A stretch of 64,000 nt of DNA from Cladochytrium replicatum (lineage: Eukaryota > Chytridiomycota > Chytridiomycetes > Cladochytriales > Cladochytriaceae): the NCBI GenBank assembly GCA_025526935.1, contig JAHLKD010000032.1, positions 310,001 through 374,000 on the forward strand. The letters run 5' to 3'. Below are positions 32,120 to 64,000 of the stretch, one piece after another; the stretch's first letter is position 1; every line of letters starts with the position of its first letter. Position numbers and translations under genes: made by a program. Below the pieces are notes generated by a model. That model saw only the letters and a program-made list of their open reading frames with translations, made no database searches and had not been told where the DNA came from.

Positions 32120-32364
32120 TGGGAAACAACACTGGGAGAACAATAAAAGCTCCGCCTTCTCGGTTCAAATAGCTTGTTATTTGGTTATTGAACATGCATC
32201 GATTAAATTAAGTTCAATTATTCGCTCATGACCCCCTAATTTTCCCTTGATTTCGAGGGTGATCGCCGCCGTCCTTGGATGTTCTTTTCCTTTAGGTCCA
32301 CTCTTACTTGCTCAACATTCTTAGCTCCGAGGAAAAAGTCGATCGCGCTCTGCGATTACGCAGT

Positions 32365-35300
32365 TTAAACTGTTGTTCCCTTCACGATGCTTGCTTCACC
32401 CACCTGCTTGACACTGTCTCGGAAATTGTTTAAATAGAGCCTCGACAGCGAATTCGTTGCATCGTTCATCATCCCTTGAATATTTCGCTTCCCTGTTCGT
32501 GTGAAATCTCCCTTCAAGGCGATTGTACCTGGAAATATGTCAATGCATAAAGAGGCGAAGGAAACTGAACTATTGTCTGTACCGGTATAAGCTCGACTTA
32601 TCGCATCGCCGTTATTTGCCCAAACGTGCTTGAAAGTGGTCTCAAACATTTCATGGTATTTGATCCCTTGCTCCGGATGGAGCTGAACTCCCAACCGAAG
32701 GAATACAATGTTGATCACAAATCTCGCGAGCACGCTCTATCAACAGAAACATCAGAAGCCATACATGTTCAAGTACGGTTTGTTTCTGTTACCTGTACAA
32801 CATTCGTTCTGTCCAAGCAATCCATGCACGACACTCGAAACACTCCTTTCTGCTCGCACAGCTCCACAAACTCATCCCCTCCCCCTTCGTCGCTGGATTC
32901 TCCCAGCGTCTCCTCCCCACCACTCTTACTCCCTCCTTTCACCGTGTCCCAACCTTTAACATTCTCCGTTCGACTGATCCAGTAATACTGCACCAGATTC
33001 TGAAAGTCAGGCTCCACCATCTGCAGCAACAGCTCAAGGTTATCGTAGTTCTTGCAGATGGCGTGGAAATCAAACTCGATAAACATGATCTTGCCTTCCG
33101 GATTCTCGGTGCTCTCGGGTTCAGCGACCATTGGCATTGGTGTATGTGCGCTGGCGGTGGGGGGACGGGAGACTGACCCTATACTGGCGATGCTCATGTG
33201 ACTGACAGCATCGCCCACTTGACCTCCAAGCTCCCGCTCAGCGGTGAATCCTCCACGCTTTTCGAATCCGGGAAGGGGCCACTGGGTTTCCCCTGCGTCG
33301 CTGCTGAGAGAGAGTCGCTCGCTCATTTTGGCGTAGTACCGGTCTGGCGTCGACCGGTACACCTTTGCAATCATCTCCCGATACTTTCCGCCAACGATTC
33401 CTTCTCGCCCTTGAAGCTCCACAAGATTCACTGGTTGCATAAATAGTCGATTTGGAGAGTTCAGGATTGATAGGAGCGCACCACATACCAACGAGTGTAT
33501 GGTTGTAGTTTATCTTCAGGAGCTCAAAGTGTTTCTTCACGATCGCAAAGTTATCTTCGTCAGATCTCTCAACGACTGGTGTAGGCTTTAAGCTTGACGC
33601 TGCTTGGCTCCAATACAAAGGTACTAACATGAAGATCAGCACAGCGTCGCGAGACATTGCATTGCCGACTTACTGGAACCTCTAAGACCAGAAAAGGTCA
33701 CGGAAAGAGAAAAATGACGTTGAATCAGTTGATGAAGACTCGGCGGCGTTTTAGGTGCTGTACCTGATCTGCACGAATGACGTTTCATGCACGTTTCCAA
33801 ATAGCTAAGGCAAGGAAACTTATAATGAGTACCAGATACCTGTTGAAAAGCAAATGTGTGAACAATCGTTATTTACCTTTGTGACAACTCTCATTTCCGT
33901 CTCGACAAAGTTCGCCACTGCACCTTCATCATCAATCCCTCGTCGTTGATACCGCAATCCTGTAGCGCAACTTTGTTAGTAAATTCCATAGCTCTATACT
34001 TAAGCTCACCTGCTCGCTCCCTTGACCTCCTCGATATTAGAATAAAGTCGAACGGAATGTCGTCAATCTGCGAAGTTGTAACGGAGACGTAGCCTTGGAT
34101 GATTGGTAACACCCAAGAATACAACTGAAAAGTGATGAATTTGGATCCGCTCACAAACAAAGTCCGCCCGAACCTTTTTCTCGAGAAACATCTCGCAAGC
34201 AGATTCGTTCCAGAAAAATCGGCGGTCAAGCTAAAATTGTTCGAATCATTGAGACTCGGGGCGTTTGAATGAACAACTTTTTGAGCCCTAACCTGAAGAA
34301 CTGGGTGCACGTCTTTCGCAAACGTCCGGCGTCGGCGTTGCAGCGACTTTGTCAAGTCGAGAGCTGCGACGTTGTTACAGTAGAAAAAGATCCCACTTAG
34401 TAACAGCGTCAGTTCTTTGCACATTTTACCATCGATGATGGCCTTTGACCAGCGTTAGCAATCCATTTTCTACATACCAAGTTTGCGTACCTCTTCGGAG
34501 GGCATGAACTGCTGGAAAGTCTTCCTGGTCGACCCGGGTGACTTTACACCGGGCTCTTCCGATCTGATGCTCGGACCCGGAGACAGACTGAACCCTCTCG
34601 GTCTCCACTTCTGCTCCTGTTGTTTCTGAGCATCGTTTTCCGCACCAGCTTTCCTGCCTCTTGGCTCTTCTGTAGATTCTGTAGTCGCCGGCAACTGGTT
34701 ATTGATGCTCTGTAAACCGACCCGGAACGCCTGAAGAAATGACGAGCTGACGCTGCGTTTCGGTTGCCTCGGTGGGGCCCCAGTGGCTACTGTGCTTGAG
34801 GGAACTTCGAGGTGTTTGGGGGTCGGTAAAGAAGCTGCGAGTTCATGCCCACCGACGATAGGGCTGCCGGGTGGGCTGGCGATTTGAATGGGTGAGCTTG
34901 CGCCATCGTCCTGTGATACTTGGAGCGACATCAGGTCTTCTGTAACTGTTCCATCTCCTTCTGACAGAGCCAGAATCGGGTCTTCTTCGTTCGGAAACTC
35001 GCTGTCACTCTCGCTCTCCATTCCCGCCTGAAACATGTTGCGTGGGTTGTCTGATCGCGTTTGCATGGAGTCGAGTCAATGTACCTTTGCGCCAATCCTC
35101 TGTAGGATCCGAAACGCGACATCTGCTACCAAGGGCAAGATCGCGACCTTGTCGATGCGATAGACACGCTCATCTGCTATCACACCGACAAAGGATCGTC
35201 GAACAATCACAATCATATGAAGACCTGAGAAGAGTCCAGTAGAAATCTCAATTAAGACCAGTTGATCTATGAACAAGGCAGGCAACAGACGCGGCGGATT

Positions 35301-35613: not shown

Positions 35614-35832
35614 CGTGCTGTGCGACGTGGCTTACAGAAGGCACAAAGATTCCACAAATTTTCAAAGTCTCGGTATGATTATCGCAGTCACTGGGAGGCA
35701 CTTCGGCAGGTGGGTGTCATATGCGGTGCAGATACAATGATTCCACCATGGCATGACACACCAAAACCACAATCTTTAACATCCCAGATCCAAACTTATT
35801 CCCACCAAGCCATTTATTTGTGCGGTCTTACC
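35614..35832. promoter_or_regulatory. divergent promoter of SAC phosphatase and FRA10AC1
   Basis: 219 bp between start codons on opposite strands (35613 minus, 35833 plus). No frame or repeat of note. Confidence 0.5.
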
Positions 35833-39571: not shown

Positions 39572-39747
39572 ATGCTCAGAATGCAAGCGATTGACAATTA
39601 GTAAACATGTAATGCGTTGAAATCCTTACAATGGAAGGCAGAAAGAGTGCTCGCGTGCAAAGAAACAGGTACATACAGAGCCAAAATCGAATAAAGGTGC
39701 AGTGAAATCCAAAAACCAATAAAACCACGACTGCGTTCATGCTTTAA

Positions 39748-44066: not shown

Positions 44067-44289
44067 CCTTGCGTTGATGTTGGAGTGGTGCGGCCGCTTC
44101 CAGGGGAGGTACAAATTTGTTCGTGAGAACTTGCGCAGCAAGTGCCATTTACTATTTGCTCCGTTACTTTTCATATTCATTTGTTAAAATACCAGCGACC
44201 TCAGATCATACATTACAAATATATTGATTAGAGGCTATTTGGATCACACACCAGCAACAAAATCGCTGATATAACTCCAATATCTCTCT

Positions 44290-44927
44290 CTACTCCTTCT
44301 GGAACGTAAGCGAAATGCTGTTCACGCAATGCCTTTCATCGGTGGGGTTGGGAAAGCCTTCACCCTTGAACACGTGGCCCAAATGCGAGCCACAGTTGGT
44401 GCAGACAATCTCAGTGCGAACCATGCCGTATGCTCGATCAGATTTCTGTGTAACAGCACCGGGAATCGCATCGTAAAATGCTGGCCAGCCACAGCCCGAA
44501 TTGAATTTAGTCTTGGACTTGTAGAGGGGCACGCCACAGGCTCCACATCCGTAGGTTCCTAAGCAATCAGCAATTAGATAACATCTCGAAGAATACTCGA
44601 AACCACCAACCTTCTTCGTAAAACTTGTCGTATTTTCCTGTGAATGCTGGCTCTGTCCCCTTCTGCCTCAACACACGAAACTGCTCGGGGCTAAGAACCG
44701 CACGCCACTGAGCGGAGAAATCGAACGAAGTGGAAGGCATTTAGTGATGCATGACACAAATGATGAAACTTGCTTACCTCTTCTTCACTCTTCTGTGCTG
44801 CAGACATTGCTTTTGGTAGCGAGGATCTGAATGCTCTTGTCTTGGCTAGGTGAAATCGAAGCAGGGGATTAAGTACATCCACAGTGCGGCGCATGACTTG
44901 TGGCGTACGCATGGAGGTGAATTTCAA
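44290..44927 (-). CDS. MSRB: methionine-R-sulfoxide reductase B
   Basis: Reduces the R form of methionine sulfoxide. Three exons. The first (from 44927) is Arg-rich and acid-poor (MRRTVDVLNPLLRFHLAKTR, then AMSAAQKSEEE), suggesting a mitochondrial presequence with possible internal starts for a cytosolic form. WRAVLSPEQFRVLRQKGTEP and FTGKYDKFYEEG follow, then TYGCGACGVPLYKSKTKF, GCGWPAFYDAI, IVCTNCGSHLGHVF and DERHCVNSISLTF. Both CxxC zinc pairs and the catalytic Cys in RHCVNS are present. It shares a 181-bp divergent promoter with cytochrome b5 reductase. Confidence 0.95.
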
Positions 44928-45108
44928 ACATTAAAAATGTGAATATTAGTATTGAATACGACACTAATATTCCGCGCTGGAAAAATAAGATCCTATCCAT
45001 GTAGTGTGAATATCCGCTGTTGAATAATACTACATCCAGATTCACCACTCTGTCTGTGAACCGGTTTCTGTGGCTTTGTCTGCTCTGCTTTTTTGCTGCT
45101 CTTTCGCT
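44928..45108. promoter_or_regulatory. divergent promoter of MsrB and cytochrome b5 reductase
   Basis: 181 bp between opposed starts (44927 minus, 45109 plus), AT-rich in the middle (44930-44975). The open frame reaching back to 45070 on the plus strand starts with GTG, so the first ATG at 45109 is taken as the start. Confidence 0.5.
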
Positions 45109-46398
45109 ATGCCAAACCAACTCGACGAAATGTTCCCCATCGAGGGGCCGGTCGCTCAGTTCTTAGCATTGACAGTCGTGATCGGTCTCTTCGGGATGTC
45201 AATCCTCATTTTCAGGGCTGGCCAAGGTAACAAAGAGTGCATTGTTTCGTCATAAAATCGGACTGAACATGCACACAGCGAGTCGTCCTGCCATTAGCAA
45301 GATCCACTGGGCTCCTTATCCGCTTACCGAGAAGAAGCAGCTTACACCAAACACTTTTCTGTGAGGCAAAGAGAACCACAGCTGTTTGAACGTCAACCTA
45401 ACGTATAATCGTGTGCAGGTTCCGTTTCTCACTTCCGAAGAACATTTCCTTGAATGTTCCAATTGGACAGGTATGCAGAATTCCCTTTCGAAATGCTATC
45501 TTTGGGGCTCAAAGCATTTTCACAGCACATTTCCATTGGGACTGAAATCAATGGAAAAATGGTCAGCAGGAGCTACACTCCTGTCTCGACCAACGCCGAT
45601 AAGGGTTACTTCGACATGGTCATCAAGGTTTACGAGAACGGCCTCATTTCAAAGCATGTTGGATCTCTCAACATTGGAGACAAAGCAAACTTCATGGGAC
45701 CAAAGGGCAACTTCATCTATGTTCCAAACATGGTCAAGGAAATTGGGATGGTATGGAATTTCTCAAGAATTGTGCCTTTCCTTTTTCGCTGAAACACACG
45801 GGTACATCGTTAGATTGCGGGAGGGTCTGGTATTACACCCATGCTTCAGATCATTAAGGCGATCCTCGCAAACCCCAATGACAAGACCACCATCAAACTT
45901 ATGTTTGCGAACGTTACTGAGCAGGACATTATCCTCCGTGATGAGATCGATGCCCTGGTTGCGAAGAGCGAGGGTCGCGTAGACGTGCTTTACGTCCTCG
46001 ACAAGGTATGGCTTATCAAACTTTGCGAATGTGTTGCATCTGGAATAATATTATTTTGTGTTTAGCCCCCCGCAGGCTGGACTGGTGGATCAGGATTTGT
46101 TAGCAAAGAAATGATCTCCAACTTCTGCCCGAAGCCCGCCTCTAACATCAAGATTCTCCTCTGTGGTCCTCTTCCGATGGTGAGTGGCACATTTTGTAAC
46201 GGTTCGCCGCAAATGAATCATGCACTAACGCTCCATTGTCACCAGATCAAGCACGTCACGAACCTTTGCGCTGAATTGGGATATGATAAGGTAAGAGATA
46301 TGTATGAGTTGGAACTCAGTTTTCAGTTTTCGAACAAACACATATTTTGTCAGGCTAACGCGATCTCCAAACCTGGGGACATGGTCTACAAATTCTGA
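45109..46398 (+). CDS. CBR1: NADH-cytochrome b5 reductase
   Basis: FAD enzyme passing electrons from NADH to cytochrome b5 for lipid desaturation and sterol synthesis, anchored in the ER or outer mitochondrial membrane. [13 protein letters not shown] precedes a membrane helix ([18 protein letters not shown]). Then come [27 protein letters not shown] and the FAD motif [10 protein letters not shown], with [19 protein letters not shown] and a MGPKGNF block. The NADH-binding part has [39 protein letters not shown] and a terminal DMVYKF at 46398. About seven short introns; about 300 residues, normal for the family. Confidence 0.95.
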
Positions 46399-46516
46399 TC
46401 CCTCCAATATATCATTCAATAAATCAGCAGTAAATTTCAAAAATCCCGTAGATTGTCTCTCACTACGCCACGCACAGTTTACCAACTCCATCCGTCCCAA
46501 CCGTCGCAACGTCCCA

Positions 46517-49284
46517 ATGGCCGCAATGAACTGGTGGTCCATTCGGCTGAATGCCACAATCGTAAAGGTGGTTGCAGTAATCATTATCGGCGGGGGGTTC
46601 CTCGCCTTTTTTGTGAGTTTACGGCAAATGGGTTTCGAGCGTCGTTTTAAAAATGTTCCACCCAGATCAAAGAAGTTGTTGATTATCTTACCGCACCGGT
46701 AATCGTAACCGTGTCGCTGGGAAGCAACGAAACTATGCCACTCCCTGGTGAGCTGGAAATAATGAGCTGTTCGAATTTCGCTTGAATGTTAGAATAGGAC
46801 TGGTATTTGTCTTTCCATTCGGATCGGCTGCATTCCAAAATGTGACTACAAACCCAACCGGCCCTGGAATAGGAAATCTTATACAATGTGAGGTCTCAAA
46901 ATAATCGCGCTGAATGGACACTTTACTGTTTTGGTGAATAGTTACTCCAACAGCGCTGGGCCAGCGGATACCACCAGATCAAGCCCTTTCTCGGTGCTTC
47001 GATACGTTCAGCATATTCAGTAACGATACTCAGCACTTTACAGCTGTAGTATTGCTGCCCAAGGCTAATGCACCCCCGGTGAAACAATGTGAGAGTTCCA
47101 GGTTTCTGTGAGCACTTGCTAATTCTTGAATGCAGACGGCCTTCTCGCCGCATTCGAGCAACCGGCCTTGGACCTGGACCCAGTACCGCCACGGCTCAAT
47201 GGTTCGGGGAACTTGAGGCAACTAACTGTCATGGTAATTGGAAGGTACTTTGCTTTTTAAGTCCTCCCATCATTCTTTAAAATCTGCTTTAGTCGTTTTC
47301 TAAGCAGCGAGTTCGGCCAGAATATTCGAAATTACTTCAACACTACCGTGAGAGATCCACAATATACAAGTCGGCCCTTTCAATTATCCTATCTTGCCGC
47401 CATTAATGGGTCTACTTCTGCAAGAGACGTGAATTCATTCGTTATCACGAACAACTTTGAGGGAGAGAACAGATTTGGTTTGAACACATATATTTATCAA
47501 TATCTGAATGGAAGCAATGAAGTGTTCTACGGTAGGCCTAATGATCGCAACATCGGTGATTTGTTAATCGACTGTCGTTCATACTTAGATCTCTCACAAA
47601 CTGGTTCTGCTCTGTGGAATGTTTTGCCACCTACGCGAATAGTTCAAGTAACGGTGAACCAGCAAAGCACCAAAATAACACGATATATTGAACAAAGGAG
47701 CAAAACATTCGCAAGCTTACTTTCATCGTATGTACCTTTGCCTTTGGAATCTGCCCAATGTACTGACTGTGAATGGCGCGACAGAGTTACCGCGGCTTTC
47801 CAGTTTTTGATGATCACCATGGTCTTTCTCGTATTCGGTCGAGGTCGATACAGCCCGTATGGACTGATCCACAGAGTATTCCCGGAGGAAGCAGTCAAGA
47901 ACTATCACCCACAGCCTGGAGCTGACCCGGACTTTGACAAGTTCCGGTACCTAATGACGTCGTATTTGGACACGAGCGTTCTCGAACGACAGGAAGATGG
48001 TCGAACGCGCAATGTCCCTGGTGGATATCCAGTACCTTCAACGTCAACTCAAGGAAAGGTTGGTGCCAGCCACAGATATTCAGCCGTGCAGACGGATCCA
48101 ACCTCGCCCGTGACCGTGGGACAGGGATCCCTGGGAAGGAGGTCCATCATGAGTTGGGATGAGCTTCAGCACGGCTGGCCCGGCTACCTGGCGATCTTGC
48201 TGGTCTTCTTGGCGATCATCATCTTTGCTATTTTGCTGCTTTTCGGCATGAACTCGCCGTTGGTTTCTTTCCTTGTCATTAGGTCCACCAATCTGGCAGG
48301 TGGAAGTGCGTCTGTGTTTAACGGGAATGAACGGCTCGAAGTCGACACCGTTTATCTCGGGTTTTACGTATGTTTTGCCAGTTCAAAGGAATTTTCAAAG
48401 TTTTAAATGTTTAGGATTTCCAGGGCCCAATTTTTGTAAAGAACGGCGTTGCGAAGCTGATCCCAGATGTGGATATACTGCGAGTGCTTCGTAAGCTTCG
48501 TATTATTCAATGCACCAACGTTCCTCATCCGATCCTCTGAATTTGCTATGCAGAGCCTTTCACCGTTGTGCCATCTGGTTCATTCATCACATCTGGATCG
48601 AAAAGTCCGTCTTTCATTGAAGACAGCTTCATGACTTTCAGAGAGATGCACGCTGCAGCACCGTTCCTTTTCAGTTGCCTCACAGTCGTCTCACTTGCTC
48701 TTTCAGTGCTCATCAAACTCGCTGCTTTGGCCCTCGAGCTCGACTTTGCTGTTTCTATAGCCGATATTTTTGTCCCCATCACTGCGAGCGTGTCTGCAGT
48801 ATTTGCTACCTTGACGTTTGTGTTCTCCCTCGTTTATTACGGGCGGGTCGAAGAGACTGTGAACGAGGGACTTGAGACGCCACTGGCTGAAGCGAGTTTC
48901 GGCCCTGGAATGTACATCTTGACCGTTGGTGCGCTGGCTGCGGTTGCGCTGTGTCTTACCGAAGTGTTCGAGAGCTACCGCATCCGGAAGAAGAAGATGG
49001 ATCTTGCTGCGCGTCGTGCGGTGACGAGTTGGTTGCCGCCTGCCGCTGCGACGTGGCCGCGACGCACGGACGCGAGAAGCTCTTGGGCGTCCGAAGTAAC
49101 GCAGCAACAGATGCAGATTGTGGAGAATGGTTCAACCACGGGAGGGTTGCAGCGACCGCAGTCTGTTCGGGAGTCGATATCGACGACGGGAGAGAGCGCT
49201 GGTGGGCATAGTCATCATTCGGTTCAGGTTGCTGCTGTTTATGGCATTGCGCCAGGATATGTGCAGGTGCAGCAACAGCGGTAG
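46517..49284 (+). CDS. multi-pass membrane protein with Sur7/PalI-like C-terminal part
   Basis: The start at 46517 (MAAMNWWSIRLNATIVKVVA) leads into a membrane helix. A variable outer domain follows, spread over small exons (VVDYLTAPVIVTVSLGSNET; LVFVFPFGSAAFQNVTTNPT; FSNDTQHFTAVVLLPKANAP). An uninterrupted frame then runs 47300-48376. It contains a second helix (FQFLMITMVFLVFG), a polar linker, then WPGYLAILLVFLAIIIFAIL at 48175. Splices add DFQGPIFVKNGVAKLIP and a last exon with three more helices: FLFSCLTVVSLALSVLIKLA, VSAVFATLTFVFSLVYY and GMYILTVGALAAVALCLTEV. The end is Gln/Ser-rich (WASEVTQQQ; the stop is at 49282). The part from 48148 resembles four-helix Sur7/PalI proteins. This may be one fused gene or two genes that share an open frame. 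No function can be assigned. Confidence 0.55.
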
Positions 49285-49980
49285 CAAAAGGTCTAGTAGT
49301 GCGATGACTGAGATTTGTTGATCACAAATGGCACTTCTAAATCACAAGTACTGTCTTGCCGTTAACTTATCTCCATGGGCAAAATTGTTCGGTGACCACT
49401 GCGAACAAGTATGGGACGATTGAACATCCTGTTCATCTTCGTTTTTAATGTCATTCGAAATTCGAAGTTCCGAGTCATGCTTTCTTTTGGGGACAATTCA
49501 CCAACAACACATTCAATACACATTTGTTTTTGATTTTGTTTTCTTCCGCAATTTGGACTGGTTTTTAAATCCGCTAGCAGCTCATTCATCGATATCGAAC
49601 AGGCGAATGGTGACGGCGTTGAATTCGACACAAGTGTGTTTCCCTCATACGGTTGAACTTTGCATCTTCGATGAAGGCGACACTGCGGAAATGTGGAAAT
49701 GTCGTCTCCTGTGTGTGTTGAGATTTGGCCATCAGGTGCCGCATTGTAGGCTGCATTGGTTAGCAACCGGTCAAATGATTCCACTGCGATCATGGAATTT
49801 GGCACCCTCTGATAGTGTAACCGAACTACGTTCCGATTGACCACCAGGTAATAGGCACTGCAGGGGTAGTGGATCGCGGCTGATGATCATTCGTTTGATC
49901 AGAAGTAATTGTAGTACGGTGAAACAGTTGCCTTAAGAATCCGATGCAGGGTATATAAGCAGCTGCAATGCCATCTCATT
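49285..49980. other. intergenic, overlapping ORFs of doubtful value
   Basis: About 700 bp. Long frames run on both strands over 49362-49844, but neither shows a family, a start context or splice partners. A TATATAA at about 49951-49957 on the plus strand has no gene close behind it. I regard the stretch as non-coding or relic. Confidence 0.4.
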
Positions 49981-51047
49981 TTACTCACGTCGTTTAGATT
50001 CCTTCACCGGTTCAGCAACTTTGTTCATCCGTTCTGCAACGTGGAAAGCCGCTCGGGCATTATCAAACACCCACCCGCACAGATCATTTATTGGACATGT
50101 CAGGCTGACGATAGCTCCATATGCTAATTGTACCTGCTGTGATGGTAAACACTGTCCTGTGCTGAACTGACTTTCTTTCAATTCCTCACTGAATCCCCCT
50201 TGCGATGATTCGTCTCCCTTTCTTTGGCTCGATGTTACAGCGTCATTTTCGTTTTCGATTGTTTTGTGCGAGCGCCTTGGCATACAAGATTTGGGATTGT
50301 GCTTGTGGATGCGTACAAAAAATGTTATGTCGACACACGTCCCTGACTGTGCGAAAGGGGTGAGTGCGCATCTTACAAAAGCTGTACGTGCAACAACTAC
50401 GGACAGACGCGCTTGTGGACCTACGGTAACCCGGAGTCTACAGCCGGCCAGTACCAATAGAGGAAACCTCACAAGGATTGTTTCGCGATCTGTACATCTT
50501 CCTGAACGATCGATCACTGATCTCCCTCTTGTATTTTCCGTTCCAGTCCGTTGTGCAGCTCCAGCGGTGCAGCCTGCTTGTGGCAACCCAGCATGGCCGC
50601 AGGCGACTTTCCACGGCCGACAGGGCTGCGGGCGACCACGAGATATCTGGACAGGTAGACTGCTCGATCCCAACAGGTTTGCACTGTGCTTTGGACGACA
50701 GGGGCCGCAGCAGACCAGGTGGGCCGCGCTGCTGTGTAGCACCGAATGTGAAGCCTGTCGGACAATACTGACAACTGTCATCTCGATCAGAAAGGGGCTC
50801 AACCTCATACAAACATACCTTTGCTCATGGTCAGCGAAAGCGCCTCCACTTCGACCGTCGAAACGGTGGAACCATCCCCAACGGAATCATTGGGTGAGGT
50901 CCGTTGGAACATTCGATTGTCGAAAATCAATGTGATGCAACACCATCTGACGGAATCGGCGATGCTACCGATGATCATGAGGATGGTCAAGCCGCGTCTC
51001 GGCCCGGTGGACTGTGCACTGCTAAACTCGCCATCGAAAGTACTCAA
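49981..51047 (-). CDS. doubtful unknown Cys-rich gene
   Basis: I do not recognise this. A minus-strand frame of about 275 codons runs 50808-49981, and a possible 5' exon lies at 51047-50814 (MSTFDGEFSSAQSTGP, then GLTILMIIGSIADSVRW). A donor after ALSLTMSK (about 50819) and an acceptor at about 50754 would join them, but into a different frame (GFTFGATQQRGPPGLL, ending near 50438). The C-terminal part (SSQGGFSEELKESQFSTG; NDLCGWVFDNARAAFHVAER) is more protein-like than the Cys- and Arg-rich middle. Equally long frames exist on the plus strand. It may be a real fast-evolving gene, or one damaged by the nearby rearrangement at about 51260. Confidence 0.25.
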
Positions 51048-51261
51048 ACAAGCCTGGGGTCACGACCCACTCGGCATGTAATGACAGGCAAGGCATGTTG
51101 TCATTGATACCAATCCGTCGCGAAATGTCATATCTGTGGAATATTTTCACGACTCTACTCAGTAGACTGTGGGCAGGTATTTCGTCTTTTGTCGGGATCG
51201 GCTTGCAAGGCCCATCGACTGTGGATCGAGGCGACGTCGCTGGTATTCTTTTGGTGAATCG

Positions 51262-51667
51262 GAATGAATCTGAGTGAGCACGCAAGACTGACTAATCTGT
51301 GGAAGCAAAAAGGATACATTCGCCATCGCGGAGAGGAAAAGGGAGATCAACGAAATTGCAAGGTTTATCCAAGGGCTTGGGGAAGTCTTCAAAGACCTTC
51401 AGAGTATGGTGATAGATCAGGGGACAATTGTGGACAGAATCGATTTCAACATTGAGCAAACAGCTGCTATGTTCACGGGAGGAGCCACATGAAAAGCTTC
51501 AAAAAAGGTCGGGTTTGAGATCTATTATGTTAGTACCCGGTTGACAATTTCTCTTTCCAGTGTTGGCCGCCCAGATTCAGAAGAATTCAAAGGCCAAACT
51601 CTGTGTAATAGCTCTCAGCACTGTCGTGTTATTCTTGCTTCTTATAATAATTCTCAAGAATGCATGA
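51262..51667 (+). pseudogene. C-terminal piece of a syntaxin-16/Tlg2 gene
   Basis: The piece begins near LSEHARLTNLWKQ and continues with the SNARE motif ERKREINEIARFIQGLGEVF, then MVIDQGTIVDRIDFNIEQ. Past an intron comes the membrane anchor QKNSKAKLCVIALSTVVLFL to the stop at 51665. This is the Qa-SNARE end of the syntaxin 16/Tlg2 family (Golgi/endosome fusion). Two frame breaks are visible: about 51305, just before the SNARE motif, and about 51485, where the SNARE frame hits a stop while HMKSFKK, leading into the anchor exon, is in another frame. No Habc domain or start lies upstream. The matching N-terminal part is on the other strand at 61740-62054. Confidence 0.7.
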
Positions 51668-51800
51668 CACTTTTTTTTGGTTCCCAGAGAAATACATTCG
51701 ACGTTTACAACACTACTCAGTCTCTATACCGCTTGAATCCTTGAGGTGCTCCTCGGTGTCCACCTGTAACCGGTACGTGGCTTCATCAGCTATCCAGCAT

Positions 51801-54800
51801 TTAATAATCCAAGTTCATAATCGTACCATAATCTTCTTCGTCGCTTTCCCGTCGTCCCTTTCGCTTTCCACCGCCAGCTCCTCGACCAGCTCCTCCCGGT
51901 CCTGCTCGGCCACCACCCTGGAATGATGTGCAAATTCAGTGAAAAAAGTTCTGATCCAGCGGACGCTCACACCAAACACACACCTTCCCTCGGGGAGCCC
52001 TTCTGTCCCGCTCACGTTCCCTTTCCCTTTCGCGATCGATTCCCCGTCTGTACGAGTCTTCGTAGGAGCGGTCTGCGCCAAACCGATCTCCATGCTGTTC
52101 TGCTTGTAGTGTTATGGGAACGATGGCGGGGCCGACATTCGTGAGCGGAATCTGAGTCTGACGCAGCACTTCCATCACATCGTTGACAGGGATGATTGGA
52201 CCTTCATTGCAGCGTCAACCGTCGAAGGTTAAAGACGGTTGACCGATACAACTTTGAAAAACTATACCGTTGTATGAGTTTGGCTGAGGAAGGCTCGCAA
52301 AGAATCTCGCAAGGGCTTCGGGTACAAGCACCGTTGGTCCTGGTGTCTGCTGCTGTCCACCAGTTTGCGAGTTGGACCGCGGTGATGTATCGACATACTC
52401 GCCAGCACTTTGCGATCCGGGTGAGCCGGCTCGTCTCGTGGCAGCCTCAGCTTCGGGCTGGTACGATATCCACTTGGACAGGTCTGGCCTCGGATATCGC
52501 TCCGCATGCACTGGGTCGAGGTTTTGGTACTTGACTCTGGCGGGGTCCGAGGTCGACTTTCTCCGTTCGTCGGACTTGTGTGCGGTTGTGGCGGCAGCCT
52601 TTGCCCGCCGTTGGTCAGCCAAACCGAGCTCGATATCCCCGACGTTGGAGATATCCAAAAACCTCCATCTTTCACCGACATCGTTCACTTCCTGGATAGT
52701 CCCCAGCTCTATGGGAAGAGAAAACATCAGACCCACACGAAGATCATCGTGGAGTATTTTTTATTGTACCTTCCAGATATGCTTCTCTCCTCCGCTTTTC
52801 ATTCTTTAGGAAAGTGGCGAGATCCCCATATTGATTCTCGTATTCGAGAAACTTTGTCCAGATTTGATGCAAGCGTGGTGCTGGCATGGCTGACAACGCA
52901 CGCTCAAAGATTGCTCGAGCGTCTATTACAAATACAAGATCAGGTCTCAGTGTGAAAAAGTACATTCTTCTTTTAAGCATACTATTTTCATCGTTTATCC
53001 CGATCAGAAAGTCGAGGTAGTGCCCCACGTATTGATTCGCATGCTCGTCTTCCGCCAAATCGAGCGACTTCATCCCGAGTTCGAATAGCTTTCCAGCAAC
53101 CTTCGAGTCTTTGCTGCAGTGATACTCCATCAAAGCTGGATGCGTGTTTGGGGTTACGACTTGATAATGAATCGATACAAAACTTCAATCTACCTGATGC
53201 CACAAAGAGGTGGTAAGTGCACGACGGCGACTTGCGAGCGTTCTTGAAAATCTCTCTTGCACCTTTAATACCCTTTGAACCGCACCCAGTGTCAGTCAGT
53301 GCATGGGCAATTCGCTATTCGCTTGTGTGTATTGTATATCAACACACCTGAGTCCTTCGAGCGGTGCGCATGTAGACTATCCACGCCAACGTGAGGGCCT
53401 TTCGTGTGGAATCAGTATCCTTTTTCCGGTGTTCCTCGACCTTTTCTTCGATTTCCTTTTCAATCTCTCTCAACTTTCCGCGCTCACGCTCCCTCGCTTC
53501 TCCGTCCCACTCTTCCTCCGCTGCCGCTCCGGACCCGTCTCCGTGCTCCTGGAATTCATTCGATACGCCTTTGGCGTTCATGTACCGGTCGCGTCGCGAG
53601 TCGTACTTTGCAGTTATCTCGACCATCTCTTGCTCCAAGCCGGATATAAGTGTGTCAAATATGGGTTTGATGTCATTAAAATCTTTCTTTCGAGACTCTT
53701 CGATTTCTGCCAGCGAAAAGTTTAGCAGAAGGCTAAATAATTGGGGTGGTCATCAGGTAAGAGTCCAAGAATCTGAACCAAAGAGCTACCTCCGAGGAAG
53801 GATTTCAATCCCAGTTTTTAGCATGGCGAGTGCGTCGTCAACTCTTCCGTTTTCAGACAAATACGCAGCTGCATCGTACCTTGAGAAAGAGTTTCAATTC
53901 AATCAATCGCCGACAATGAAAAGTGGATTCTTTAACCCACCACACTTCTGGGTACTGTCGAAGCATGGCCAGTGCAAGTCTGTAAGCATAACTGACTCTG
54001 GCGATCAGAGATGGTTTCTCTTTCTCCTCAAATTGGAGTGGATTCGACTTTTCCCAAGCGATGTACCGTTTCCACATCGCCAACTGTAAAAGTTGAGTAC
54101 AAGTACCGCAATAGAGTACAGATTTGACTTCCACTTACCACCGAGCATTCCTTTTCACTCCAGCTTGGCGGCTTGGGCATCCACATCTTCTGTGCCTTCT
54201 CGATCGGCTCGATCAGATTCTTCATTTCTCGGAGTGCCGTTCGTGCAGTCATGTACGCAGGCGATCGCTCTGCGAGCAACTTTTTTGCCTGAACGTTTTT
54301 GATCAGACGTCCATTCACGAGGACCAAGTACACGAATCGTTCATTTTACCAGCTGCTTGTTTAACCCGTTTTCATAGTTGTCGTATTCTTTCCACAACTG
54401 CTCGATGTTGTTTAGGGGGATGACCAGTGCACGCTGGTAGGCCCGTCGAAGTTCGTCCATCTTCCGCTGCTCCTCATATGGTGTCGTTGTCTGATCGAGA
54501 AGGCCCAGTTAGATCCATTCAGTTGATCGGAAAACTCGGATGCTCGAAACATCCCCAAACGAATATGTAAATCCCTCCCGGAGCGCGAATCGATCCATCC
54601 AGACAGAAACAATAACAAAAAAGGACAAACACCGAATCAAAGAACGCGATTCGCAAGATAAGGCACTCTACAATGAGGGAGCATGTTTTTCTTTGTCAGG
54701 CAGGTGCACTACGGGTGACACTCCTGAGCACAAGAAGGTTCTGTTCCGCAAAGAATGGGACAGGTGAGCTCGTTCGAGAAAGGCACAAAGTATCTCCATT

Positions 54801-55411
54801 TTAAAGAGCTTATATTGCGATCCACTGATAACACATAACGTGTATGTTCCGACGCGACCCTTCATACACGAAACACGGTCAGCAGTTTGAGGACACTTTA
54901 CCTCTTTAGCTCGAATAAACTGGATATAGTCGATCCAGATGCTTGCAGCATCCTTATCCAGTCCAATATGGTTCAGAACAAACTCAAAGGACTTGTTAAT
55001 TGTCGCACGTGCTTCTACTTTCCGCTCGGGTGGAAAGTTGGCGGGCGAATGGGTCTTTCGGATGTAGTTCAGATAGCATTTCCACAGGTCGATAGACGGG
55101 ACGGAAAGCAGACAGCGGCCAAACAAGGCCTCGACTTTGTCATAAGCCTTGTTTTTCTGTTCAAATTCGATGTAATTGATCCATTGTCTGGCCTGTGGAT
55201 GGTCAATAAAGCTTCAGAGAGGGAGGTTTGGATATTCGCCACAAAGTGAACGCACTAGACTCGGAAACTGCTTCAGGATTTCCTCGTACGCTTCCCTGGT
55301 AGTGTTCACATCGTTTGTTTTAGTGCACTCCAGCAGGTACGCCGACCACGAGTCTGTGTCCCATTCATTCGCCTTCAACTTTGCCAGCAGTTTGTCTTTC
55401 TTCGTTGCCAT
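51801..55411 (-). CDS. RNA14: mRNA 3'-end processing factor RNA14 / CstF-77
   Basis: HAT-repeat scaffold of the cleavage stimulation complex that recognises GU-rich elements at poly(A) sites. It starts at 55411 ([20 protein letters not shown]); an in-frame Met is also at 55486. Next come [57 protein letters not shown] and [57 protein letters not shown] and [19 protein letters not shown] follow. The C-terminal monkeytail-like [14 protein letters not shown] is at about 52185. The last exon is Gly-rich ([17 protein letters not shown]) and stops at 51801. A coil of alternating Arg/Glu lies near 52020. About ten introns. The blocks separate it from the other HAT protein Clf1. Divergent from the kinesin. 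Confidence 0.9.
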
Positions 55412-55612
55412 GCGAGTGGAAAGTGGCGGTCTCAAAATTGCACTTTTGGGGCTATTTTTTAAAAAATCATTGTGGACGCTCTGCATTGCATTCCATAATC
55501 CAGAGTATCCATATCGCTACACTGAATTTTAACTCTGTTGTTTTTCACAAAGCAAACCCCGTGGCTAGTGGGTCGGTCGGCTGTGGCTAGTATACGTGAA
55601 GTCTTCTCATGT
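55412..55612. promoter_or_regulatory. divergent promoter of RNA14 and kinesin-4
   Basis: 201 bp between opposed starts (55411 minus, 55613 plus). The upstream RNA14 Met at 55486 would shorten it to 126 bp. It includes a short duplicated gtggctagt near 55561 and 55583. Confidence 0.45.
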
Positions 55613-58600
55613 ATGGCGACCACCTCGGTCAAGGTTGCTCTGCGCGTGCGGCCGCTGACCCAAAAAGAAATCCTCGAAAATGCTTCGCCATGCGTCAGCG
55701 TCGTCAATGGTCTTCCTCAGGTCGTCGTCGGCAGCCTATCTACTAAATCTGGCACAACCCTAGTTGTACATGGCCACCCCGTTTCCGAAAAGGCATTCAC
55801 ATTTGACTATGTATACGGGCAAAACTCTGCTCAGTACGAGCTGTACGATGACTGCGTGGCGCCATTGGTATCGAAGTTTGTGGAGGGTTTCAATGCCACT
55901 GTTCTGGCGTATGGGCAGGTGAGCGAACAAATTTGGCAACATGTTCCGTTGTTAACCTTCTGTACGGCAGACGGGATCAGGGAAAACTTACAGCATGGGA
56001 ACAGCACTTGATTCGACTGGCGATGCGGAAGGTTGGTTTTGAATAAAAATTTGCTTTTTGTGCAATGCCAACGTAGTACATCAGGAATCGTACAAAGAGC
56101 GGTCAGATCAATATTCGATTATCTCCATAGCAAGTCGGAAAAGAATCCCGCGGGATTTCAGTATTCTATAGCGGTCTCCTTTCTGGAACTCTATAATGAA
56201 GAGCTGGTGGATTTGCTCAACCCGCGAAGATCATCTCCTGGTGGCTGGGGTGGGCTATCCATTAGAGAAAACAGCGAGGGGGCGATTGTTTGGTCGGGTG
56301 TAAGGGAGGAGAATGTACGAAATGCCGATGAAATACTACGGTTGGCTTAAAGAACGTTTTTTGAATTTGTCTTACAATTGACTTTTTCAACAGTTGCCTT
56401 CAGAAAGGAACTCTCTGTAGAACAACCGCGTCGACAGAAATGAACACGACATCATCAAGATCTCATGCCATCTTCAGTGTGATTCTCCGTCAGCAAAAGT
56501 GGCAGCCTCGCCCACATGAGAATGACGACCCAAACGAATTGCTTGAAGGACTGGAAGGCGATTTGGATTTTGTCATCACTGAAAATCCATACGCCAATCC
56601 TATCACTCACCCGGATGGACAATGGGTACATCTCACATCGAAATTCCATTTTGTCGATCTTGCTGGCTCGGAGCGGCTGAAGAAAACTAATGCGGCTGGT
56701 GACAGGAAAAAGGAGGGCATTTCTATTAATCAAGGGCTCTTGGCATTGGGGAATGTCATATCTGTGCTCGGAGATGAGTCGAAGCGGGGGATGCACGTTC
56801 CTTATCGGGACTCAAAGCTCACACGAATGCTTCAGGACAGTTTGGGTGGAAATAGCCAAACGCTTATGTTGGCTTGTGTCAGCCCCAGTGATTTCAATTA
56901 CGGCGAGACGATGAGCACGTTAAACTATGCAAATCGTGCCCGAAACATCAGAAACCGGGTGCTTATCAATCAGGACTGGGCGGCGGGTGGTGGAGCTGGG
57001 GCATCGGAGAAGGACCATGAAATTCGAGTTTTGCGTGCTCAAATATCGCAACTTCGAAGCGAAAATGAAGAACTCCAAAACTCGCTGAACGGGAAGGCTG
57101 GGATTCCGAACGGACAGGCATCTTCAGTATCCTCAAAAGAGCTCGAAGACAGGAGAAGATTCTTGGAAAAGGAGGAGGAACGAATCAGAGCTGCATCTTT
57201 GAAACTGGAAAGAGAGCTTCAATTGAAGCAGCACAATCAGCGAGATTTGCGGGATGAGTTAACCCAAATGACTGAGCGGGAGCAAGCTACCCAGTTCGAG
57301 TTGGACAGGCTTCGATTCCGGTGCTGCCGATTGTACGGCAGATCGCTCGAGTTGAACAATGAACTGGTTACAGCATTAGCGGAGCGCGACAAGGCGTTGG
57401 TGGATGTGGGCTTAAGCAGAAAGGCCTCAACCATTAAATCTGAACCAGGGAACACGATCAGTGATGAACAATCATCTGGCTTTTCAATAGAGGTCCCTTT
57501 CGAACAGGGAAGAGCCTCCCCGGAAGTTGACCCCGATGCCACCACTGTAGAAGCCGCGAAGCAACCGCAAGGAATGGACAATCTTCAGTTTCAGCAAATT
57601 TTGCACTCCTACATTCAGACTATCGCAGAGATGCGTTTTCGGCTTGCGAATGCGGAGGATAAGTTGGCTTGGTACAACGAGGTTGTGATATCGCTGACAG
57701 GGGTTCGCCAAGAAAGTACGGGTACTTCAGAAGTTCCTCCTTCTCCAGATCGACGTGCGTCAGATATACGGAGGAAGTGGAGGCCAAAGAGAAGAAGAAA
57801 ACCGAAATCTGCCACACCAGTTCAAAAGGAACAAATAACTACCACCGCACAAGTCGCTCCTAACCCATTATCGAGCTTTCCAGACGAGTTTATAGAGCAA
57901 GCAATAGGATTGGCACAGCCAGATTTATCGGCTGATTCGTTGAGTGCAGTTGAAGTGCCCCAAACACCGATTCAAAAAAATATTGCTGCGGTCCAGCGAG
58001 AAGCTAGTGATGGCGTTGACCACGAACGCAAGCTCTGGCGTGCTCTGAAGCAGGATCCGGAAATTAGCGACGTAAGTGGCAGCCCTATTAAGGTTGGAAC
58101 TGCTGATAATCAGTATTTCATCCTCCCTCAGATGCTCAGCTCGCAAACAAGTGCTGCCGATAGCCCCTCGACGTCCGAACGAACACGCCGCAAGATACCC
58201 CGGCTTCTTGAAACGAACTCACTAGTAAGCTCGCCAATTGAGTTTGTAACGTTAATACTGAATTGTAGTTTCAGGCAAAATCCCGACATATGCCGTTTAC
58301 TTCTCTTGGAGAATCAGATGGTGCACCGAACGGATTAATTGGTTCATATAGCGACAGCACATCATCATTGGAGCGTCACGAAGAGTCTGACGGCATCCTA
58401 GCAGGCGATTCGGATTCCGACCACGAGGCTGGACTACCGTCCTCAAATACAGTGTTTAGCGACGAATTTGGAACTCCCATGTCAGAACTTTCCTCACGAA
58501 AGAAGTTCAACGTATCTCGTAACAGTGATAAGTCTGCGGACATGTTCTTGCTCGTCCACAAGCTTCAGATGGATATTGCGGATCAAGAGACACTGATGAG

Positions 58601-61073
58601 GAGATTGCAAGATCGTGATGCTGAGTACAACTCCATGAGGCGTACATACGAACAGCAGCTTGGTCTGCTTCAATCTCAGCTTGCTGATGTACAGAAGCAG
58701 CGGGATGAGGCAATGAAGAGGATCAGTTCGGAGATGCCGCAGAACGTGCACCATGGGCTCAAAGAGAAGAAGTCGACGAGATCTCTGAAGTCTGCAGCCA
58801 CTGACTCACGTCCTGGGACTGCTGCAATCCGACAACGGCATGAGGATAAAGTCAGGAAGTTGGAGCAGGAGATAAGTTTGTTTAAACGTAAACTGGACGA
58901 GTATCAGAGCATCGAAAAAACGATCAAACAACGACATGAGACTCTCACCAAGAACATGACCTCGACAATCCAGTCCCTGAAAGGTATGTGATTCAATGCT
59001 GTATGGAAGAATATTGAATGTTTGCTCTATTTAGCGGAGAAATCCACGTTGGTGAAGCAGTTGAAGGAGGAAGCAACGCGTGTCCGAAAGATCGAAAGTA
59101 AGACGCAAATAGAAATAGCAGCCCTGAAGAGAAGAGAGAAAGCTGCGATGGAGATGGCCAAACGGCTCGAACGGAGTCAAACCATTCAGCGTGCAGTACT
59201 GGAGCGTAGAACTGAGAATATCGCCGAGTCGCAGAATACGATCAAACAAGTGATGAACATGCTTGAACAGGCATCACCCATTGCGGATACATCGGAGGCC
59301 ACCGGTGAATTGGCCAGGGCGCCGACGAGGACTAGTCAGCGTATCAGCGAAGCTACTATCGACCGAGTCCGCAAAGCTCTCCAAGGGAAGAGGCACAGAT
59401 TTGCAATGAAGTCGATTCACTCAGCCAACGGTGCTCGTAGCCCGTTGCCCGGTGGACCGGACGGGAACGCCAGTTTCGATATCGCCGAAACTCTCTCACC
59501 ACCAACGGAAAGCTCACAGAATTTGTACCGTGGTGTAATGTCCCGAAAATCGAAAAGGCTTTCCAAACGACTTTCGAAACGCAGGGCTGAGCCTCATGTC
59601 GACCTTCGTTCACCATTGGGTGATCCACGCTCTCCATTCGTCAATACCCCGTCTAATTTCGCAGAAGGTTCTACGGCTGAGACACCGTTGGAAGTCCGTG
59701 TCCAGCTCAAGAAGCAGATGCTCGACAAAGAGTTGACCTCGTGTGTGGCCGCGAGGAAAGGACTCCAGTTGATTCGCGACTTGCAGCTTCAACTTCAAAG
59801 TTTGGCAGACGAGCGGCGGGATCTGCTCCAGAGTTCGGCCGAACAAAAGTCACGAGGATTTGCTGAAGACGGAAACACAGTGCTGGAGTCAGACGAGCGA
59901 CTTCAGGCGATAGACGGAGAGATATCCCTGTTTAATGCCAAGATCGGCTCCACGTGGGCGGATCTGAAGAATGCAGGGTTAGTTTTGATTTTGAACGAAG
60001 ATGTGAACAGCACGCCGATCTTTACAAACTCATTCGACACCTCTGGAGTCATATCGGAATCGACCATAGGTTGGGAGAATGCTCTCAACATGCTTCGTTC
60101 CTTGAGTGACCTGGAAGTGGAGAGAGTTGCGGAGCTCTTTATGGATGAAATTGTTACGCTTAGAATATCATTGCAAAGCTCAAACAGTTTGGTGGTCGAG
60201 CGCGACAAGACTCTCGACGAGCTCCGTCACACACTCAACGTCGTTCGAAATGCAGCATTGCAGACAGCCATGGACTACGAGCAAAGAATCAAAGCTATTG
60301 AGGAAGAAGCAGCAAAGCGGGTCCTCGCATTGAGAACATCAAACAGGAATATGATGTCGTGGATTCAAGCCCCTGCAAACGAAACAGAATGGGTTCCCTT
60401 GGGTCAGGCGTGGTCGAGAGATCTCCCAAATCACCCGCAGTTAGAGCGAACACCAGTATCGCCTCCGTTGATATTGACGATTGGAGACATGCGTCGTGAC
60501 GTTGATCGTACGAAACAGCGAATCATTATGAGTCCACATGGCTTGATGGACGAGGACCGCGTCGATGAATCTATTCTTCAAGGCAGGAGAAGTCAACCTA
60601 CACCGTCGCCGACCACATCAACAGCATCTTCGGACGGTTTCTTTGCCTATCGCCGGGACAGCAATGCGGGGATACGGGATTCAATTGGGAGCGATGGGTC
60701 AATTCCTGAACGAGAGCATGTTGAACCCGGATTGTTCGGCAGGAGACGAACAAGAAGTGCATGGATACCAGCCTCCAAAGCAGCCATTGCTCAGATGTTC
60801 ACGCCAGGGACATCGTACTCGGATCGCCAACCACGCGCACGTATTCCCGCCGGTCCTGCGTTATCAAGAGGAGCTTTTGAGCGGCTTACTAGGCAGGATC
60901 GCTCTGCACATGTGGCATCTATTCGTAGCGCGAGCGCTGGAAGTGCCATCGAGTTTTCTCGCGGGGCGTCCTCCGAACACGACGTGTTTTCAAGACTCTC
61001 TACAAGTCATACTCAATCAAGTGCCAGCAAAATCCTTCGCAAGTCGGAGCAAGTGGTGGTTGGGGAAGACTGA
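55613..61073 (+). CDS. kinesin-4 family motor protein
   Basis: Plus-end microtubule motor, about 1,700 residues. The motor domain is N-terminal: [29 protein letters not shown] (P-loop, joined across an intron at 55918), [29 protein letters not shown] (switch I), [20 protein letters not shown] (switch II), then [20 protein letters not shown] and [15 protein letters not shown]. The last two are typical of kinesin-4 (KIF4/KIF21/KIF27). Long coiled-coil segments follow (57000-57320, 58540-58960, 59040-59280, 60090-60330), interspersed with Ser/Pro-rich linkers and a basic patch (about 59550-59590). Introns fall mostly in the motor part; two more are at 58226-58268 and 58985-59033. KIF4, KIF21 or KIF27 subtype is not settled. 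Confidence 0.93.
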
Positions 61074-61739
61074 ACGGAGTGATCTTCCTGAGTTGCCGAC
61101 TATCATATGAATTTGTTGGGTTTTCTTTCTTTGGTTCCATGCTTCTTGCAGCACCGCAATGTGCTCACTCTCTTGTTTTCTATTTGCGGAACATGTCTCG
61201 TTTTGGTCTAATCGACGTATTTATAATTGTCTCAGCTACTTCGAAAAGTCCGTTGTCCTCCTGGTCATCGTTGGACTTGAAGATTCAAATTGACGGAGTT
61301 CTGGTGACAGCATAATAATACTATCACTTTCTTCATGGTTCGGTCAGAGTGCCTTTCACCATCCACAAGGACAAGCTTGTTTTACAAAGAAGGGATGGTC
61401 CAAGAGCAACTTTCCGATTGTCCCTCGAGACTTTGAAGTAGGAGCTGGAGGAAGCAAGAGATTATCCATGCTGTTGACTTTGTTAGATAATGACAATCCT
61501 AAAATAGCGGCCCTCTCACACACAAACGCCGGAGATAATTATTAAATTCAATGTGTGTTTCCATTCCTCACAGCAACTGTACCTAACGGAATTCCAGCCT
61601 TATTCAGAACATTTCTGAAAGAGTCCTTTGTTTTTGGCCCTTGGATCGGAGCACATGTCAGTTGTTGAATCGTCCGGTCGTGAGAACTATTTCAAGTGCC
61701 ACTCCAAAACGCATTGATGATGGAGCACGGAGTAGATTA
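61074..61739. other. kinesin 3' flank up to the syntaxin break, no gene seen
   Basis: About 670 bp. Short plus-strand frames have no resemblance to known proteins. The right edge, about 61740-61750, is where the N-terminal syntaxin piece stops resembling its family. Confidence 0.4.
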
Positions 61740-62054
61740 ATTTTGCAAAATACCGAGTCGTCTTCTTCACCTGGCTGATCCTCTACGCTGGGCATGTTGC
61801 AGAGATCTTTACTTCTAGGTTCCCTTACCCATAGCTCTGGAGTGGCGACGGGGTCAAACAAAACATGTGGAGAAAGATGTTTGATTCCGTACTAGCGAGA
61901 TAAAGAGACTGTGATTTGCGGAATGTAGCTGACACATCTTGCAGTTCAGTTGCAAGCGAGATCTGTATGTTTTGCTGAGTGCCGTGGGATGTGCTGATGC
62001 GACATTGCTCTCGTTGTGAATTGGCTTCACTTTCTTCTGGCATTCGCTGAACAG
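61740..62054 (-). pseudogene. N-terminal (Habc) piece of the same syntaxin-16/Tlg2 gene
   Basis: After a CAG acceptor at 62055 the minus strand reads AVQRMPEESEANSQREQ, then NIQISLATELQDVSATFRKS and QSLYLA. This is the third Habc helix of syntaxin 16/Tlg2. At about 61890 the frame changes; GIKHLSPHVLFDPVA follows, then across a 43-bp intron VEDQPGEEDDSVF, the acidic linker that normally precedes the SNARE motif. Similarity ends there. What should follow is found on the plus strand at 51262-51667. The first Habc helices and the start codon are not visible upstream, where the NAC gene lies. Confidence 0.68.
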
Positions 62055-62280
62055 CTGAAAGAAAATACATTAAGATCGAATGAAAGCCAAAGGGACAGCA
62101 TAAGAGGTGTTGTTAACAATGAATATTGAATTGAAATTGAATTACTTCTAATATGGAAGTTTGAGAACACGGGTTGGGTGGCTGGTCACCAATTGGACAC
62201 GTGACAGCATAACCAGTACGTTACCGGGAGGGAGAGAGCTCGCCAGTGTGGATGGAGGAGAGATACCCGAGTGGAGAATC

Positions 62281-62350
62281 TGTCGATGGATGGATGAATC
62301 GATTGGATGAGTTGATGGATTGATGGATGGATGAATCGGTGAATCGTTGT

Positions 62351-62360
<10 letters not shown>
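62281..62360. repeat. short GATG/GAATC-rich minisatellite
   Basis: Irregular repetition of gatggatgaatc-like words between 62281 and 62360, overlapping the proposed first exon of NAC alpha. Such slippage-prone DNA in a leader could vary between strains. Confidence 0.7.
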
Positions 62361-63206
<846 letters not shown>

Positions 63207-64000
63207 AAAAATTATTGAAAATATCATCAATACTTGTTCACAACCCCACAATTGAATCGCTTGCAAATTTATGCCTTGAGAGTTTACTGTGGTCCTCGAA
63301 CACATGTGTTGGAAGTGCTGATTTGCCAGTGGGTTGATTGCTACGAAGGAATCCATCGCTGGAGCTTTTCGATAATCGTTGCGTTGATACTTGGTCTGAA
63401 AGTGGGGATTTCTCCCACCACTTCTTTGGAGGCTTGCGAGCAATGTTTCCGCTGCTGGAAGATTCTGCGCACTCAGGGTTTCGAAGTATGGTTGTTCCGA
63501 GCACTTTCCCAACCTCAATACGAGATTGGTCGTGGTTCTCGAAGCTGCAGCTTTGATTGGTACGAGCGGCACAAGAAAGGACCAAAAGCGCCCTCAGAAA
63601 TTAGTAATACGTCGGCAAATACACGACTTCTGTATCGACTCCATGTAGATTTACCACTGGCGACATGCACCGCGATCGCCACAAGCCTACTTGGTTTGAT
63701 GAATCTCTATTCTGCAATGTCAACGACGTCAAATAGCACAGTTGCCGACCACATCAATGTCATTGTCAGATGATTTCTTTGTCTAAAGGTAAGATATCAT
63801 GGTCATCAATCCCTGAACATGATTATTTGGCAGAAGACGAATCAGAATAATGACCTCTGTCCTCAATGTTCCCAACTGACTCTAAACCTCTCGCCCAACT
63901 TTCAAACCAGTTTGTAATACACGTTTGCTCCCTGCAGTCACGACCGATTCGTAAAGGAACTCCTTGAGGAAAAGGGCACAACTTCTACTCATGTTTTTAT
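63207..64000. other. right flank, no supported gene
   Basis: About 790 bp with overlapping long frames on both strands (plus 63234-63773, minus 63238-63585). Neither has a recognisable domain. The minus frame (SGNIARKPPKKWWEKSPLSD) is somewhat more protein-like and could be the 3' end of a gene entering from beyond the window. Confidence 0.35.

Follow-up and report, generated by a model that had tools for sequence, protein, structure and literature searches.

The window analysed here is a stretch of 64,000 nucleotides from the aquatic chytrid fungus Cladochytrium replicatum (GCA_025526935.1, contig JAHLKD010000032.1; C32:310001-374000 in the labels used below, genome size 50.5 Mb), in which one TLG2/syntaxin-16 gene is found as two non-overlapping pieces on opposite strands, with a block harboring RNA14 and a kinesin gene between them. 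An intact TLG2 gene is located in a paralogous region on a second contig of the same genome (C37). We suggest that an inversion very probably split a redundant TLG2 duplicate in one of two paralogous regions, while the C37 copy remained intact. The parts of the split gene and the sequence upstream of it are as follows, in window coordinates:

51322..51507, plus strand: TLG2 exon 7, SNARE motif, 5′ end missing; +3, +1 and +2 insertions, with a TGA in the shifted stretch; aligns to C37 305635-305456
51508..51560, plus strand: TLG2 intron 7, retained, GT...AG
51561..51667, plus strand: TLG2 exon 8, encoding the membrane anchor, with the stop codon; aligns to C37 305394-305293
61742..61753, minus strand: stub of TLG2 intron 6, the cut site of the gene
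61754..61836, minus strand: TLG2 exon 6, acidic linker, with an in-frame 6-bp deletion; aligns to C37 305824-305736
61837..61892, minus strand: TLG2 intron 5, 56 bp, retained, GT...AG
61893..62054, minus strand: TLG2 exon 5, final helix of Habc; an A-run is shortened by 1 bp and a further 9 bp are lost in frame; aligns to C37 306045-305874
62066..62175, minus strand: 5′ deletion site, ~110 bp unalignable to C37 in place of ~640 bp with the start codon and exons 1-4
62176..62330, no strand: NACA-TLG2 intergenic sequence common to both copies, collinear with C37

In a genome search, the plus-strand piece (piece B; 51322-51667) matches the C37 TLG2 gene with 83% identity (query residues 4-58; 82 bits; E-value: 5e-22), and, of the solved structures, the Qa-SNARE Tlg2 (6xmd/6xm1) matches it best (E-value: 1.5e-12). 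The minus-strand piece (piece A; 62054-61742) matches the same gene (query residues 20-55; 46 bits; E-value: 1.6e-10). A preliminary description of the window had left the likeness of piece A to syntaxins to a profile search; the peptide alone shows no Pfam match, yet it shares 81% identity with C37 TLG2, and the piece B peptide alone gives a sub-threshold Pfam SNARE match only. Both pieces are confirmed as real and as TLG2, and the arrangement proposed in that description, with two TLG2 pieces flanking a block of ~10 kb on opposite strands, is borne out by the matches of both to the C37 gene. The minus-strand piece, which it had read as the last Habc helix and acidic linker, corresponds to C37 exons 5 and 6, while the plus-strand piece holds the SNARE motif (exon 7) and membrane anchor (exon 8) expected of it but lacks the 5′ end of exon 7.

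The outer limit of piece A is exact, position 62054 being the first base past the intron 4 acceptor, and position 51667 is the final base of the piece B stop codon. The inner limits were set by local alignment to C37 TLG2 in comparison with shuffled sequence. On the left, TLG2 similarity begins at approximately 51322 (window 51313-51363: 0/2000 shuffles as good), and for 51262-51312 the alignment to TLG2 is of the level obtained with shuffles (635/2000 as good). On the right, similarity stops at approximately 61742, within intron 6 (61745-61795: 0/2000 shuffles as good; 61730-61755: 372/2000). The window has no counterpart to some 89 bp of C37 TLG2 (305636-305724), which cover what remains of intron 6 together with the initial 45 bp of exon 7. 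As such, the two pieces do not overlap, as had been described, but neither do they abut almost exactly. The proposed join of EEDDSVF to SEHARLT does not hold, since the homology on the left begins only at ~51322 and SEHARLT therefore lies outside the gene, while EEDDSVF represents the end of exon 6 (EEDDS) read into intron 6.

The intact C37 gene (306624-305293, minus strand) consists of eight exons separated by GT/AG introns and encodes, in one reading frame, a 308-amino acid protein that is annotated in C. replicatum, in identical form, as a t-SNARE and shares 64% identity with a Spizellomyces t-SNARE. Among the Qa-SNAREs it is closest to Tlg2 (6xmd; E-value: 5e-47, versus 5e-13 for syntaxin-1A), to which it aligns over residues 33-264, and its SNARE domain (residues 250-301) scores above the Pfam cut-off. 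The central glutamine of the SNARE motif we take to be that within VIDQGT. The protein has an arginine-bearing start (MATRSRT) and a hydrophobic tail; an N-peptide and Habc domain, as in the C37 gene, are known features of Tlg2 according to excerpts of PMC7470827. The loss of this Qa-SNARE had been expected to matter unless another copy existed, and the search for an intact gene in the rest of the genome locates one on C37. The window gene is the second copy, and its loss leaves one intact TLG2 in the genome. A search of the genome with both pieces revealed no further full TLG2 copy beyond the C37 locus and the window pieces, the other matches being a relic at C37 303576-303662 (E-value: 0.004) and two with E-values above 0.1. 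That relic, a second trace of TLG2 exon 7, extends over C37:303554-303653 at the DNA level, beside RNA14 and ~1.9 kb from the intact exon, with which it is 81% identical; it may represent a partial tandem duplication or an insertion scar. Between TLG2 and RNA14, C37:304115-305060 repeats parts of C37 328344-329777 in reversed orientation (73-76% identity), a sequence absent from the window at this location.

Comparison of the two contigs at the DNA level shows that window 51.33-61.25 kb corresponds to C37 305.6-293.8 kb in reversed orientation. The left flank (window 22.2-32.7 kb) is collinear with C37 282.6-292.7 kb and the right flank (61.75-63.2 kb) with C37 305.7-307.8 kb, and beyond the window end collinear matches follow stepwise as far as 85.7 kb on the window scale (C37 325.0-354.1). 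The block is thus reversed between flanks that are both collinear, as expected of a chromosomal inversion. The block and its right flank contain the following:

51706..55428, minus strand: RNA14 (mRNA 3′-end processing factor), in the inverted block; Pfam Suf; aligned stretch, 79% nucleotide identity to C37 303401-299714
55612..61246, plus strand: kinesin gene, in the inverted block; aligned stretch, 83.5% nucleotide identity to C37 299489-293802
61247..61741, no strand: right junction, ~500 bp without a second match in the genome search
62314..63230, plus strand: NACA gene in the right flank; Pfam NAC; stretch aligned collinearly to C37 306833-307755

The kinesin open reading frame (ORF; 56365-58338) contains the Pfam domain PF00225 (E-value: 5.9e-54). 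On C37 the gene order is NACA, intact TLG2, RNA14, kinesin and a relic of a SAC phosphatase gene. The two TLG2 pieces lie at the ends of the reversed block, and flipping the block restores the C37 order. The prediction that a flip of ~51.26-61.75 kb would reunite the pieces in order is thus matched by an order actually present on C37. Inversion on the C37 side was also considered, and is rejected because a gene put together again by a later rearrangement could hardly be expected to give a whole protein matching its homologues: the C37 gene is whole, with all eight exons, and its protein aligns to the listed homologues, most over at least 90% of its length. The junction regions (49000-51400 and 61100-62400) have no long repeats in common, the longest match being 18 bp (best E-value: 0.38; nothing beyond chance). 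A GGAT-type simple repeat occurs near the right end (~62280-62350), but a similar one is found at the same place on C37, so that no role for it is shown.

The window copy does not have the features of a working gene, with exons 1-4 absent, the remainder on two strands and frameshifts in the coding sequence. Exons 1-4 (C37 306624-306113) have no counterpart in the window, in agreement with the earlier suspicion that the right side had lost more, including the first Habc exons. Window 62060-62180 aligns to C37 no better than chance (240/500 shuffles as good), in contrast to 62150-62330 (0/500), and as the NACA-side intergenic sequence is still common up to ~62176, the loss of exons 1-4 was local (~640 bp). 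The true frame lesions are the 1-bp deletion in the A-run of exon 5 and, on either side of the TGA in exon 7, the +1 and +2 insertions. Frameshifts had been reported for both pieces, and real ones are present in exons 5 and 7, but the one placed after YLA in piece A is the retained 56-bp intron (61892-61837). The retention of introns 5 and 7, the lesions in exons 5 and 7 and the intact C37 sister copy characterize the window copy as a duplicated, non-processed pseudogene. An origin as a retrocopy is rejected, given that introns are kept and the upstream sequence is common with C37.

Over 173 aligned codons, the window and C37 TLG2 copies show dN 0.075, dS 0.83 and dN/dS 0.09 (bootstrap 0.05-0.15), and most TLG2 divergence therefore arose under constraint. 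A high dN/dS had been expected as proof of decay and was not found; an asymmetry became visible only after the changes were polarised, using 34 other fungal Tlg2 proteins as outgroups, and 16 outgroup proteins for the RNA14 control. Of 27 polarised TLG2 residue changes, 22 fall on the window side and five on the C37 side, those in the window including K153E, E221K, L252V and A235G at positions invariant or nearly so in other Tlg2 proteins. Five codons left of 51322, which are not TLG2, are excluded from this count; with them it becomes 24:5 with one tie, and dN/dS 0.10. In the RNA14 control, for which poorly aligned stretches were filtered out and the annotated window protein is the shorter, 12 changes are on the window side and 20 on the C37 side, with five ties over 486 positions (Fisher p 0.0013 against 22:5). 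Under the RNA14 filter the TLG2 count is 21:3 (p 0.0003), and where the ancestral state is required in at least 17/34 outgroups it is 14:1. The loss of constraint is not common to RNA14. According to the polarised counts it is specific to the window TLG2 when set against this single control, and late relative to the duplication, the window copy having been kept for most of the time since then. Given 22 versus five changes over ~406 nonsynonymous sites, and a synonymous divergence of ~0.42 per site in each lineage, the window copy seems, as a rough estimate, to have been free of constraint for about a tenth of the time since duplication.

For coding segments of the C32/C37 pair, the median dS is 0.77 (70 segments with dN < 0.3 and a defined dS, any wrong-frame rows and tandem copies included). 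Ten of ten CCT/proteasome pairs, chosen for matching profile boundaries and not at random, fall at dS 0.43-0.92 (median 0.74). Among the ten SNARE-search loci compared, three pairs match over at least 1 kb, and these together with RPB2 give nine rows, 7/9 at dS 0.48-0.87, while the other two (0.04 and 0.29) look out of frame. At least 17 chaperonin-family and at least 23 proteasome-family loci are present (not typed one by one), where ~9 and ~14 genes, respectively, would usually be expected. The MCM family has eight loci, as many as MCM2-9 would give if none were duplicated, and four loci, one evident pair among them, make up the RNA polymerase second-subunit family, with loci not typed individually in either family. 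Gene pairs of similar dS (~0.75) are observed between C32/C37, C2/C11, C81/C120, C24/C25, C62/C99, C6/C28, C100/C142, C39/C18 and others. Pairs of such similar age would fit an old whole-genome duplication with partial loss in C. replicatum, from which both regions may descend, with large segmental duplications or an old hybridisation as alternatives; collinearity was measured for C32/C37 only, with no fungal outgroup genome in the comparison. The long C32/C37 collinearity and the many genes in two copies would also be seen if the contigs were divergent haplotypes of a heterozygous or hybrid individual, the split TLG2 being one allele. We consider this improbable: the eight MCM loci and the four RNA polymerase loci with one pair indicate that the assembly is not simply doubled, a dS of ~0.77 is far above usual allelic divergence, and gene content differs between the two regions.

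We suggest, rather, that the window represents one of two paralogous chromosome regions, in both of which TLG2 once lay between NACA and RNA14. The block comprising the TLG2 3′ end, RNA14 and the kinesin gene would have been inverted through breaks at two sites, one within TLG2 (intron 6/exon 7) and one separating the kinesin gene from the SAC-phosphatase side, leaving the gene halves 10 kb apart on opposite strands. The inversion itself, and not an earlier small lesion, would have killed the gene, with the breaks joined without long repeats, and the dead gene would further have lost its first four exons and gained indels. The C37 copy can supply the Tlg2 Qa-SNARE, which would explain why the break was tolerated.

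Several points weigh against this reconstruction. Approximately 18.5 kb left of the break (32.7-51.3 kb) have no C37 counterpart here, which means either that the event went beyond a simple inversion or that subsequent changes have been superimposed on it. The TLG2 dN/dS of 0.09 is not above that of the neighbours in the same region (RNA14: 0.09-0.18; kinesin: 0.03-0.18, sense-strand rows) and alone would suggest a living gene, while the polarised count comprises 27 changes and one control gene, with several calls resting on small outgroup majorities. The ancestral gene order is taken from C37 and not from another species. The inversion, the exon deletion and the frameshifts may have arisen in any order; of the proposal that the gene has been dead since the break, the decayed copy with its frame lesions stands, but a smaller lesion may have preceded the inversion. 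Finally, the junctions are those of the assembly, which leaves a small probability of misassembly.

In a misjoin, the assembler would have placed the block backwards within a TLG2 pseudogene that is dead but unsplit. The copy is dead in any case, with exons 1-4 missing and frameshifts present, and the arrangement is that of the assembly. Artificial inversions, however, usually need inverted repeats, and the junction regions have no common match beyond 18 bp; furthermore, a mere flip would leave neither the ~89 bp of TLG2 gone at the cut nor the ~500 bp unmatched at the right junction, making a misjoin very unlikely. Two separate duplications of TLG2 fragments either side of RNA14 and the kinesin gene, without inversion, are hardly credible, for although such duplication occurs here, as in the C37 exon 7 relic (303554-303653), the pieces do not overlap and lie next to NACA and RNA14 as on C37, and the RNA14-kinesin block is turned around as a whole while both flanks keep their positions.

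Genes broken at inversion breakpoints are known, for example in human F8 inversions, where likewise a flip with one end in the gene puts its halves on opposite strands. The TLG2 case differs in that the same genome holds a second, intact copy, which records the earlier order and allows the break to be tolerated, and in that no long repeats are found at the junctions. In Dothideomycetes, intra-chromosomal inversions reorder genes ('mesosynteny'), with breakpoints associated with simple repeats according to excerpts of PMC3516569; the reordering of fungal genes within a chromosome by inversion is common to both, but the present case is a chytrid and compares paralogous regions, not species. Parts of PMC2699053 describe retained pairs, including those of the ubiquitin-proteasome system, after whole-genome duplication in Rhizopus oryzae, and parts of PMC8825440 describe gene loss after duplication in post-duplication yeasts such as Kazachstania. 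Paralogous blocks, many retained pairs and losses in either copy are seen here as well, but the means by which one copy was lost, a cut by inversion, can be read directly, and both papers, in these parts, concern other organisms. No report of this TLG2 case was found in the literature searched, most subscription papers being outside the search. The kind of event is known, and this is a clear but ordinary duplicate loss, unusually well documented by its own genome. Lost duplicates rarely reveal the manner of their loss; in the present case one can read off its physical cause, or an event at least closely tied to it, and the C37 sister copy supplies both the original gene order and a clock. A whole-genome duplication signal in a chytrid would furthermore help to compare gene retention with Rhizopus and yeasts.

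A loss in the opposite direction is observed beside the same block, in the left flank, where one further gene is located:

32239..35075, minus strand: SAC phosphoinositide phosphatase gene, catalytic motif CMDCLDRT; limits approximate, intactness not established

The window gene shows a modest match to SAC1 in PDB (E-value: 4e-4). C37 similarity to it stops at window 32712, downstream of the catalytic motif, and the C37 stub (292.2-292.8 kb) seems to change frame twice and ends at the start of a dispersed repeat (292752-293153), which also occurs on C32, at approximately window 1-435 and at coordinate 100343 in window numbering. When window 32500-35200 was used to search the genome, only itself and the C37 stub were returned. 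C37 as such lacks the catalytic part of the phosphatase, the reverse of the TLG2 loss in the window, so that next to the block each region is missing a different gene or its working part. Whether C. replicatum is an ancient polyploid in which the two sides of one block have lost different membrane-traffic genes (TLG2 in the window, the SAC catalytic part on C37) seems evenly poised, and no report of polyploidy for the genus Cladochytrium was found in the literature searched. If so, the genome would allow the deaths of duplicates and their causes to be dated one by one, and reciprocal losses by rearrangement can isolate sister lineages.

Between the SAC gene and the TLG2 break, window 35.2-51.25 kb contains no paralogous block, its 15 matches comprising two adjacent ones on C6 at or beside a Fra10Ac1-family gene and others of 36-241 bp. 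The ~14 kb directly left of the break (37000-51250) have no counterpart on the compared C37 stretch, and none of five large ORFs at 39.7-49.3 kb is named by Pfam. The Fra10Ac1-family gene itself (35563-36174) has an evident DNA relative on C6 (39567-40208), not on C37, which may be a moved or separately retained partner. At the far left of the window, two adjacent stretches (7545-10053), with an ORF that is presumably oxidoreductase-like, match one C37 locus (~270726-271932), pointing to a possible tandem duplication in the window copy or a loss on C37.

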